A DNA stretch of 64,000 nt. Source: Candidatus Nanoarchaeia archaeon (GTDB taxonomy: Archaea; Nanobdellota; Nanobdellia; Woesearchaeales; SKIA01). Location: positions 124,001-188,000 of the forward strand of contig JANQNG010000059.1 of assembly GCA_028279685.1 (NCBI GenBank), written 5' to 3'. The notes under the pieces were generated by a model. That model was not told the DNA's origin. It saw nothing but the letters and a program-made list of their open reading frames with translations, and did not search any database. Both the position numbers and the translations under genes were made by a program. This document shows, piece by piece, positions 1,594 through 28,332 of the stretch. The number at the start of each line of letters is the position of its first letter. Position 1 is the stretch's first letter.

Positions 1594-1695
1594 TGAGGCT
1601 GGCCGGAGTCGAACCGGCGACCTTCGGTGAGTGAGACCAACGTCATCTATGGATCTAGCCGTTATTGGCTTGATAAGCCACTAGACCACAGCCTC
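1594..1695 (-). tRNA. tRNA-Val(CAC) with a probable D-loop intron
   Basis: The acceptor arm GAGGCTG/CAGCCTC is perfect, with discriminator A. The T arm is GCCGG-TTCGACT-CCGGC. The anticodon arm TTGGT-CTCACTC-ACCGA places CAC at 34-36, reading GUG Val codons; U at position 37 is unusual. The locus is 102 nt, about 28 too long. Removing roughly 1645-1672 restores a D arm that starts GTCTAGTGG and closes with GAC, as in other archaeal tRNA-Val. The extra bases contain CTAG complementary to the CTAG of the D arm. Exact splice sites are not resolved. A TATA box at about 1718-1730 on this strand supports expression. Confidence 0.7.
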
Positions 1696-1790
1696 TTGTG
1701 TTATCATGATTTAATAAGGTATTTATATATATTATGGCACAGGACATCTTCTCAACATACTTTTATAAATCGCTTCTGATTGGCAATAAC

Positions 1791-3386
1791 ATGGCCAAAA
1801 GCACAAAGATAGCCTCTTTATATAATAATGTTGTTGTGGATATAGCCATGGATACGATGGGTATGAGGAAACAAGCTTTAGTGTTTGTCAACACGAAGAA
1901 ATCCGCTGAGGTTGAAGCAGAGCGTATTGCCAAAAAGAGAAAACTGGAAAAGAATTCCACAGAAGAATACCAATTAAAGATCTTATCAGAAGAGATACTC
2001 AAAGTATTATCTTCCCCTACAAAGCAGTGCAAACGCTTAGCAGCATGTGTTGCAAAAGGAACAGCATTTCATCATGCAGGATTAGCAGCTAAGCAAAGAG
2101 AGTTAGTAGAGGGGAATTTCAAGAAAGGAGTAATTAGAATTATTTGCGCCACGCCAACTTTGGCCGCGGGCATAAATTTACCAGCGTTCCGTGTTGTTAT
2201 AAGAGATCTTTCAAGATTTGAGCCTCGGAGAGGAATGGCAAGAATTCCTGTGCTGGAATATCATCAGATGGCTGGTCGTGCAGGTCGTCCAGATTTTAAT
2301 GATGAATATGGTGAAGCAATCTGTATTGCACAAACTGAATCACAAAAAGAAGGCATTATTAAGAAATACATCCATGGAGAACCTGAAGAAATCTATTCGA
2401 AGCTAGCAGTTGAGCCTGTTCTCAGAACATACTTACTTTCGCTTATTGCATCGAATTTCGTTAACACCATAGAGGAAATCATGGATTTTTTTGGACGAAC
2501 ATTTTATGCACATACTTTTGGAAACACAGGAGAGCTTGAAAGCATAATCAGAAGAATGCTGAATCTTCTTGCTTCCTGGGATTTTATAGGATTAGGTAAT
2601 ATTGAGAATGATTTTACCAGTGCTGATGAACTAGAGAATGACAGCAGCATGATTAAAGCAACTCCTCTCGGGAAAAGAGTAGCTCAATTATATCTTGATC
2701 CATTAACGGCGCATGAACTCATTAAAGGAATTGAAAGAAGCAAAGAATTAATTATTATGCCCTTTACGCTTCTCCATCTTGTGTGCTCTGCATTAGAGAT
2801 GCGTCCTTTGCTCAGAGCAAAAACTGCGGAGTACGAAACAATCCAAGAAAAAATAAATCTCTACAATGAGCGAATGCTGCAAAAAGAACCTCCTTTGTAT
2901 GAATCTGAGTATGAAGATTTTCTCAATGCAATCAAGACAACAATGCTGTTGGATGAATGGATTGATGAGCGCAATGAAGATTATTTATTAGAAACATACT
3001 CTGCTACTCCTGGAGAATTGAAATACAAAATTGATATTGCTGACTGGTTACTATACTCTTGTGTTGAGTTAGCAAAACTACTCCCTCATGTAAAATTTGT
3101 TGCGGAATGTAATAAATTAAGATCACGATTGAAATACGGTGCACGTGAAGAACTCTTGCCATTATTGAAACTAAAGAATATTGGAAGAATCAGAGCAAGA
3201 AAATTATTTGCTAATAGGATAAAAGATGTCGGAGATGTCAGAAAAGCTGATTTTATTGTGCTGACACAATTGATTGGCAGAGCTACTGCGATTGATATCA
3301 AGAAGCAAGTCGGAGAAGATATTTCCAAACTCAAGGTTAAGAAGAATAAACGAAAAGGCCAGATTAGTTTAAATGATTATAAGTAG
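1791..3386 (+). CDS. hel308: Hel308-type helicase, C-terminal half only
   Basis: Hel308 is a 3'-5' superfamily 2 DNA helicase of stalled-fork repair, usually about 700 residues. Only the second RecA domain onward is here: FHHAGL, the ATPTLAAGINLP segment and motif VI QMAGRAGRP, then winged-helix and ratchet domains and a C-terminal helix-hairpin-helix. The first RecA domain with Walker A and DExH is absent and is not in the upstream DNA. ATG 1791 is preferred over 1734 because a TATA box at 1761-1770 sits about 25 nt before it; the TATA further upstream serves the divergent tRNA. The C-terminus Q-I-S-L-N-D-Y-K resembles a PCNA-binding box. It is either half of a split enzyme or a truncated gene. 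Confidence 0.8.
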   Translation: MAKSTKIASLYNNVVVDIAMDTMGMRKQALVFVNTKKSAEVEAERIAKKRKLEKNSTEEYQLKILSEEILKVLSSPTKQCKRLAACVAKGTAFHHAGLAAKQRELVEGNFKKGVIRIICATPTLAAGINLPAFRVVIRDLSRFEPRRGMARIPVLEYHQMAGRAGRPDFNDEYGEAICIAQTESQKEGIIKKYIHGEPEEIYSKLAVEPVLRTYLLSLIASNFVNTIEEIMDFFGRTFYAHTFGNTGELESIIRRMLNLLASWDFIGLGNIENDFTSADELENDSSMIKATPLGKRVAQLYLDPLTAHELIKGIERSKELIIMPFTLLHLVCSALEMRPLLRAKTAEYETIQEKINLYNERMLQKEPPLYESEYEDFLNAIKTTMLLDEWIDERNEDYLLETYSATPGELKYKIDIADWLLYSCVELAKLLPHVKFVAECNKLRSRLKYGAREELLPLLKLKNIGRIRARKLFANRIKDVGDVRKADFIVLTQLIGRATAIDIKKQVGEDISKLKVKKNKRKGQISLNDYK

Positions 3387-3625: not shown

Positions 3626-3700
3626 GCTTCCGTAGCTCAGTCCGGCTAGAGCGGCTGCCTCGTAAGCAGCAGGTCGAGGGTTCAAATCCCTCCGGGAGCT
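3626..3700 (+). tRNA. tRNA-Thr(CGT)
   Basis: The 75-nt cloverleaf is complete. The acceptor GCTTCCG pairs with CGGGAGC through one T-G wobble, with discriminator T. The anticodon arm GCTGC-CTCGTAA-GCAGC gives anticodon CGT for ACG codons, and the T arm GAGGG-TTCAAAT-CCCTC is standard. CCA is not encoded and there is no intron. A TATA-like element at about 3591-3603 is correctly placed upstream. Confidence 0.95.
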
Positions 3701-26725: not shown

Positions 26726-26932
26726 GCCGTGGACGCCTAGTTTGGTTCTTACCGAAGGTAAGTTCAAACGCTAGTTTGTATTGGCGCCCGCCTCAAGAGC
26801 GGGTTCGTTACCCAACGAAGCGAAGGTTCGAATCAAAAACTCTGTAGAGTTTTTGGTCCAAAAAAGCAATGAAATTGCTTTTTTGATATCATCAATGGTT
26901 AAACCTTGAGGGCGAAGATCCCTCCCACGGCG
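26726..26932 (+). tRNA. tRNA-Leu(CAA), apparently interrupted twice
   Basis: The acceptor GCCGTGG/CCACGGC is perfect. The anticodon arm CCCGC-CTCAAGA-GCGGG gives CAA, and a long variable arm TTCGTT-ACCC-AACGAA marks a class II tRNA. The locus is 207 nt against about 88 expected. Removing 33 nt from the D loop (about 26747-26779; hairpin CTTACC-GAA-GGTAAG) and about 86 nt from the T loop (about 26834-26919) leaves GCC-TAGTTTGGTATT-GGC and GAAGG-TTCGAAT-CCCTC, with one A-C mismatch. Discriminator G is odd for Leu. Both insertions look like introns at positions known in other archaea, but splice motifs are unresolved; a decaying gene is the alternative. Confidence 0.55.
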
Positions 26933-26943
26933 CATGTTATTTC

Positions 26944-28332
26944 TCATTTATTCTTTGAGCAAAACAACATGTTTATTCCAATTATAAATAATGATGCGGA
27001 TACGAGTATGTGTGCACTATTGACAATGTTCCCATAAATAAATAATGGAACTCCCACAATAAAAGAAAAAAGTATTCCCCAAAAAACTCCTTTCTCTGAT
27101 AGATGTTTTTTATATAGGCTTGCCAATGTAGGAACTAAAATACATGCTGCAATAGTGTTGAAGATCCACCATAAATGCTGTAATCCGAATTCTGGAATAT
27201 GTTCAACTGCTAAAGCAATAACAACACTTATCAACATTATAATTATCATCCCCCATCTTGCATATTTAACTTTCTTTTTATTCATAATATCAATAATCCA
27301 TAATGAACTCCCTGCTGCTAATCCTGAATCTAATGTTGATGTTAGTCCTGCAAGAAGCATAATGACAAATAACATTACTGCCCATGATGGGAGCAATTGG
27401 GCAACTGTCTGCACACCAATCATTGAAACATCTAATCCTTCAGGCAAACTAATTCCTAATGAAGGATTTGCTGCAAGAAAACCCAAACTTGATAATGCTA
27501 TTGGTACTATGCCAAAAAGTAGTGCTCCAAAAATAAATGCTGCAATTATTTTTTTCTTTTTTAATGCAAATGTTCTTTGCCAATACTGTTGATCAGAAAT
27601 AGCTCCTGCAATAAGTCCTATTGATGTTACAATGCCAAATGAGAATGCTACTCCAGGATCAAAGATATTTCCTATGTTTTCTATACCTTGAAGATTAAAT
27701 CCTCCTGTTGCTGTAGTTAATGTCATGGGAATAATAATGATTCCGATGATAAATATTAATGCTAATTGTAAAACATCTGTAATTACTGATGCAGCTAATC
27801 CTGAGATTAAAGTATATATTAATGCAATAATTGCTAATGCGAAAAGAACTTTCATAAAAGGAATTCCTGTTAGCAAAGAAACTAGATGTCCTCCAGCAAA
27901 CAATTGTACAGTTACAGCCATAATTTGATAGAACATATACGGGATGATGTACATAATATGAGTTCTCTTGCTTTTGAATTTTTCTTTAATGAATTGTGGG
28001 AGTGTATATCCTTTCGGCATTAATGATCTTATTTTTGGCGCTAAAAATGCAAAGATTGCTAATGCTATAATGTTTGGCAGAGTAAACCAAAATATTCCTG
28101 CTAATCCTTTTTGATATGCAATTTGTGAACTAATAAATAATGCGGGTGCCCAGATCCAGGATGCTGCAATGCTTATTCCTCCATTAAACCATCCTAGTTT
28201 TCTGTTTGCTACTAGGAAAGCATCTTTTGTATTTTCTTTTCTTAGTTTTGCGAAAATCCCTGTTATGAATATCATTGTTAATCCGAAGCATATCAGGAAG
28301 ATCCATCCTTGAGTTGTTGTTATGAATGCCAT
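26944..28332 (-). CDS. Sodium/solute symporter (SSS family)
   Basis: The 462-residue protein has about 12-13 membrane helices in the LeuT-like SSS arrangement. Family marks include the N-terminal cytoplasmic LVANRKLGWFNGGISIAA segment near 40-58, the Q-YWQR motif near 230 and the helix with TSTLDSGLAAGSS near 315. It takes up an organic solute, a sugar, amino acid or osmolyte, with Na+; which one is not visible. GGTGATAAC before ATG 28332 serves as ribosome site. Upstream lies a 16-bp element almost identical to one before the TrmB gene at 29666, which suggests control by that regulator. Confidence 0.88.
   Translation of the reverse strand: MAFITTTQGWIFLICFGLTMIFITGIFAKLRKENTKDAFLVANRKLGWFNGGISIAASWIWAPALFISSQIAYQKGLAGIFWFTLPNIIALAIFAFLAPKIRSLMPKGYTLPQFIKEKFKSKRTHIMYIIPYMFYQIMAVTVQLFAGGHLVSLLTGIPFMKVLFALAIIALIYTLISGLAASVITDVLQLALIFIIGIIIIPMTLTTATGGFNLQGIENIGNIFDPGVAFSFGIVTSIGLIAGAISDQQYWQRTFALKKKKIIAAFIFGALLFGIVPIALSSLGFLAANPSLGISLPEGLDVSMIGVQTVAQLLPSWAVMLFVIMLLAGLTSTLDSGLAAGSSLWIIDIMNKKKVKYARWGMIIIMLISVVIALAVEHIPEFGLQHLWWIFNTIAACILVPTLASLYKKHLSEKGVFWGILFSFIVGVPLFIYGNIVNSAHILVSASLFIIGINMLFCSKNK

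Follow-up and report, generated by a model that had tools for sequence, protein, structure and literature searches.

On the reverse strand of the window (the whole 64,000-nucleotide stretch of DNA that was analysed), positions 1594 to 1695 contain a tRNA-Val(CAC) gene, the 102 nt precursor of which, counted with the discriminator base A at 1594, had all its stems intact (7/7 pairs in the acceptor stem, 5/5 in the anticodon stem, one of them G-U, and 5/5 in the T stem), together with a D loop about 29 nt over the normal size. The anticodon CAC (1631-1633, reverse strand) was followed directly on its 3' side by an unusual U37, at a position where a purine is almost universal. U37 beside a Val anticodon was observed at 1630 of the window (CAC) as well as at L014, L034 and L135 (GAC), in several genomes of the order. 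A TATA-like box (TATATATAAATA, 1720 to 1731, reverse strand) was recognised by sequence inspection 25-36 nt 5' of the gene, and the fold of the precursor strand was better than 200/200 shuffles (z = -3.7).

ARAGORN, when given the intron-removed sequence, called Val(CAC) over its full length. This call and the completeness of the other arms bear out the preliminary description of the locus, which had named a tRNA-Val(CAC) with an overlong D loop. Neither ARAGORN in default mode nor the Rfam tRNA model at its cut-off, both applied to the whole window, found the gene; the sole tRNA that they reported window-wide was a tRNA-Thr at 3626-3700. Two other annotations of the locus were rejected: a tRNA-Trp(CCA), called by ARAGORN with introns allowed, was a misparse of tRNA-Val(CAC), and an Rfam tmRNA match (23.6 bits against a cut-off of 47) was an artefact of the long tRNA. 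At 1500-1529, 62 nt past the gene, part of the 3'-end of tRNA-Val was repeated in degenerate form (24/30 identical), possibly a scar of integration or of tandem duplication.

The source genome, that of a DPANN archaeon as yet uncultured, was assembled to 1.9 Mb in 80 contigs with a completeness of 92%, and its order also includes MAGs labelled Nanoarchaeota or Woesearchaeota. It gave 26 tRNA matches, most of them longer than a normal tRNA; these are covariance-model matches, and heavily interrupted genes may be missing from the list. Besides Val(CAC), at least five tRNAs, when parsed by hand, had D-loop introns, namely Val(TAC), two Leu, Ser(UGA) and Gln(CUG). In these five the central helix had 4/4 pairs, and the parsed cut geometry was the one described below for Val(CAC). 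Lys(CTT) likely has a D-loop intron too. Such introns hide tRNA genes from standard finders or cause them to be misnamed, so that the tRNA sets of these genomes look incomplete. The window also contained a gene resembling tRNA-Leu(CAA), about 200 nt long (26732-26932, forward strand), with a D-loop insertion, a long variable arm, some 80 nt of hairpin-rich sequence breaking up the T arm, and the 3' acceptor strand CCACGGC at 26925; its D-loop insert, as parsed, lay outside the geometry of the other introns.

Boundaries of the probable D-loop intron

Removal of a 29-nt segment, UAUCAAGCCAAUAACGGCUAGAUCCAUAG (1647 to 1675, reverse strand), from the interrupted gene left a normal tRNA, made up of a 5' exon (1676 to 1695, reverse strand) that ends in ...GUCUAGUGGCU and runs through position 20a, and a 3' exon (1594 to 1646, reverse strand) that begins with AUGACG (A21). 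The intron is placed in this way between 20a and 21, just 5' of A21 and outside 37/38. Among all 29-nt excisions, this one gave the best match to two intronless references, with 59/73 matches to the Val(CAC) gene of genome G003, which belongs to the same family, and 53/73 to the Val(GAC) of the genome itself (L004), and each one-base shift lost one match with both references. It restores GTCTAGTGGCT-ATGACG, and the restored D arm, GTCTAGTGGCTATGACG, was identical to that of both references. Furthermore, two BLAST matches to intronless relatives began at the first base of the 3' exon (query 95, which is precursor position 50).

This comparison strongly supports the non-canonical D-loop intron proposed in the preliminary description, but not the boundaries given there (1645-1672, 28 nt), which leave one extra T in the D loop with respect to the uninterrupted relatives. 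An intron spliced with cuts 1-3 nt off 1647-1675, as in that example, would still leave the D loop at an acceptable size, and Val(CAC) was the ARAGORN call for all such variants. However, besides its one-base advantage with both references, 1647-1675 led to identity with the uninterrupted D arm of the relatives and would have each cut follow the second nucleotide of a bulge, the arrangement parsed in the genome's other D-loop introns too, making shifted cuts unlikely.

Predicted splice motif and its recurrence in the order

With the D stem kept, the minimum free energy fold of the precursor (-37.3 kcal/mol) had the four-base-pair helix between exon and intron that is expected of an archaeal bulge-helix-bulge (BHB) intron. 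This central helix H was formed by GUGG in the exon (1678 to 1681, precursor positions 15-18) and CCAU in the intron (1649 to 1652), and a 3-nt bulge, CU/U (1675 to 1677, the stroke marking the putative 5' splice site), lay below the intron hairpin h' (1653 to 1674, AUC:GAU and AGCC:GGCU with the loop AAUAAC), all of them on the reverse strand. The putative 3' splice site, AG/A (1646 to 1648, reverse strand), sat in a 2x4 internal loop with no clean 3-nt bulge, and the strict hBHBh' motif did not form in this fold. Because the internal loop separates the exon-side helix (the D stem, GUC:GAC) from the central helix, the motif modelled for the 102 nt is a BHB of the relaxed HBh' class only. A CTAG:CTAG pairing between the insert and the D arm, which had been suggested earlier, was rejected, because GYGG:CCRY, or its wobble equivalents, is the pairing found in both the constrained fold and the comparative set; the CTAG of the intron sits inside the intron's own hairpin, and the splice-spanning helix is GUGG:CCAU. 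The unconstrained minimum was at -41.7 kcal/mol, 4.4 below the constrained fold, and it kept most of the central helix and the hairpin, while the 5' strand of the D stem paired around the 3' splice site and hid it. This hidden site was counted against an intron, as were the unusual U37 (found also in the Val(GAC) of some relatives) and a sole EndA of a type described as narrow.

For comparison, 288 genomes of the order were searched for the D-arm halves with spacers of 0-30 and 31-61 nt, the insert being left unconstrained. Among the listed matches, the same Val D-arm sequence was uninterrupted in 109 cases and interrupted at exactly the same point in 20, and these 20 genes, spread over 16 genomes and 12 families, had inserts of 16 to 48 nt that mostly differed in sequence. 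They formed 79 of the 80 central-helix pairs (shuffled inserts formed 37 on average, and 0/5,000 reached 79), and the hairpin started after exactly three bulge nucleotides in 19/20, spacings of 2, 4 and 5 giving little. Over the 12 distinct rows, 97.9% of the central-helix cells were paired, and sliding the partner lowered the pairing from 98% to 27-75%. The variable position of the helix was U-A, U-G or C-G with one mismatch, C-G standing for U-A in three distinct rows; covariation alone was not above the column-shuffle control (160/500 shuffles reached the observed score). What supports the central helix is its almost complete pairing and its constant geometry. Two further matches were rejected, one in G031 as an artefact spanning two tandem tRNAs and one in G070 as not being a tRNA, as it had neither T arm nor acceptor stem; the latter was left out of the statistics first for its missing geometry, and its flank was examined afterwards.

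An exact-pattern motif scan of 84,980 species, which informs on distribution and not on pairing because CCAY was fixed beforehand, gave 13 places, all of them tRNA-Val in archaeal records (labelled Nanoarchaeota, Nanoarchaeia, Woesearchaeota, Aenigmatarchaeota, one Euryarchaeota and other archaea) and several with further introns. In the closest relatives, belonging to the same family, the Val D arms were uninterrupted, and therefore the intron was either gained here or lost there.

A decaying pseudogene hit by a random insertion, with Val(UAC) reading the GUG codons, would fit the unusual U37, the partial copy at 1500-1529 as a mark of a rearranged locus, and the presence of a Val(UAC) gene (L022). 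We judge it improbable, given that the stems are all intact with the TATA-like box in place, that no second Val(CAC) was found in the 92%-complete genome, that GUG is used 175 times in the long ORFs of the window, and that 19 other genes share the same insertion nucleotide and pairing geometry. Retention of the 29 nt, which would give the mature tRNA an enlarged, structured D arm, agrees with the unconstrained fold, where the 5' strand of the D arm is lengthened into a long hairpin. We give it hardly any credence: uninterrupted D arms are found beside the interrupted ones (109 against 20) and the inserts vary in length and mostly in sequence, many of the same genes also have anticodon- and T-loop insertions, whose removal is required, and the central helix occupies the G18G19 region, which the T loop needs in the mature tRNA.

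Very probably, then, what interrupts the gene is a BHB-type archaeal tRNA intron, located at a non-canonical D-loop site (20a/21) and spliced in the following way. The GUGG of the exon (G15-G19 region) would pair with the CCAU just 5' of the 3' splice site, a pairing that would leave the 3-nt 5' bulge CU/U below the intron's own hairpin; EndA would cut after the second nucleotide of this bulge and after CCAUAG, and RtcB would ligate the two exons, so that a standard D loop results. From the sequence we infer that the tRNA-Val(CAC) precursor is transcribed, cleaved and ligated.

Other introns were observed in the tRNA-Val genes of the order. Four loci of three families (L132, L138, L139 and L140) had Val D-loop introns built around a core resembling AAAATCAGAGATTTTGGCATCTCTGG; both Val(GAC) and Val(CAC) genes are among them, and this shared core suggests intron spread or a conserved role. 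T-loop introns were seen in the tRNA-Val of relatives (L064, L068, L069, L070 and L138), some of which also had anticodon-loop introns, with up to three per gene.

Splicing enzymes

The genome encodes both an EndA endonuclease (PF01974, 3.3e-26) and an RtcB ligase (PF01139, 2.9e-170). Looking up the type of EndA, as had been recommended, gave one gene above the cut-off, on contig C36 at around 27962-28222, coding for a 230 aa alpha-type protein with the Tyr/His/Lys catalytic triad, whose nearest solved chain by sequence was the Nanoarchaeum equitans catalytic subunit (3iey_A). The genome yielded no beta subunit, this alpha-type EndA being its sole PF01974 gene above the cut-off, and a second EndA candidate (L058, E 0.44) was rejected as having no Pfam domain. 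The search should have revealed a beta subunit resembling the N. equitans one, because the genome's own EndA matches 3iey_B at 3e-15, but a very divergent or short one may have been overlooked. Sixty relatives had nearly always one EndA gene. All 16 intron-bearing genomes had exactly one PF01974 gene above the cut-off (with sub-threshold extras in four), and neither a second (beta) subunit nor fused units were found in them. A CSL/ASL insertion with lysine was absent in 16/16 in the alignment over the ASL site, where ASL was compared directly and CSL only via its reported equivalent position, and the C-terminus carried a conserved Trp-x-(Arg/Lys)-Pro in 16/16.

In archaea, both D-loop introns and relaxed motifs are well documented (PMC6379350, PMC8450103, PMC12397907), and the literature links non-canonical introns to heteromeric or loop-bearing EndA, alpha4 enzymes being narrow and broad specificity going with (alpha-beta)2 or epsilon-2 forms and CSL/ASL loops (PMC6379350, PMC4033280, PMC12397907). 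The expectation that cleavage at this site needs a broadened endonuclease finds no backing in the gene content, which comprises one alpha-type EndA with no ASL/CSL-type insertion. Three explanations come into view: this enzyme may exceed the specificity usual for its class, cleavage may need no more than the 5' half of the motif, which is near-canonical, or a divergent subunit may have escaped detection. As a tentative but serious possibility, a single-subunit alpha-type EndA without CSL/ASL, widespread in the order and with a conserved terminal Trp, may remove relaxed D-, anticodon- and T-loop introns. If true, a broad single alpha-type EndA would break the rule that alpha4 cuts only canonical BHB motifs, as well as the rule that a special loop or second subunit preceded the spread of non-canonical introns. 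With many D-loop introns beside a single plain alpha-type EndA, the lineage lends itself naturally to a test of the co-evolution model, and enzyme and substrate are both small enough for in vitro testing. It is well supported by the comparisons that the intron itself would be of a known archaeal kind in a little-studied lineage, the enzyme question being the interesting part.

The D-loop BHB introns of Thermoproteales and other Crenarchaeota are likewise outside 37/38, with relaxed BHB motifs and several per gene (PMC6379350, PMC8450103, PMC4033280); however, crenarchaeal lineages have an (alpha-beta)2 EndA with a Crenarchaea-specific loop, whereas one alpha-type EndA and no such loop were found here. 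Intron-rich tRNA sets with non-canonical positions are also known from metagenome-derived genomes of the Asgard Atabeyarchaeia and Freyarchaeia (PMC11291895), a different lineage, and the endonuclease is absent from the main text of that paper. N. equitans, whose EndA provides the nearest solved chain, processes disrupted tRNAs at relaxed BHB sites, but its enzyme is (alpha-beta)2 and no beta subunit was found here; the nanoarchaeon Nst1 reportedly has alpha4 only and lacks split tRNAs (PMC4033280). The epsilon-2 EndA of ARMAN-2 is a broad-specificity enzyme from an ultrasmall archaeon, with Arg and Trp recognition residues (PMC12397907); a C-terminal Trp is also found here, and the conserved terminal Trp of the order's EndA is as in broad-specificity enzymes, but the ARMAN-2 protein is a three-unit fusion with ASL, in contrast to the single-unit proteins without ASL described here. 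A limited literature search combining 'Woesearchaeota' with 'tRNA introns' gave only PMC6125680, on group I introns, which is no proof of novelty.

Flanking sequences

A 27-nt stretch with palindromic surroundings (1561-1587 of the window) had a 96% identical repeat elsewhere in the same genome (C24:60858-60884). On the forward strand, 1734-3386 encodes a Hel308-like helicase that starts at the second RecA domain, and the missing DEAD-domain half was observed as a 226-aa ORF on another contig (C44:10704-11189, L153). Frames of the C-terminal helicase part, about 515-575 aa long, occur commonly in the order, and therefore the split Hel308-like gene seems to be general there. Four Hel308 relatives (G001:C2:2933-6013, G002:C41:1623-4688, G041:C1:237227-240226 and G010:C5:3744-6881), with open frames of about 1000 aa, had about 500 extra residues at query residue 145, possibly an intein or other insertion.
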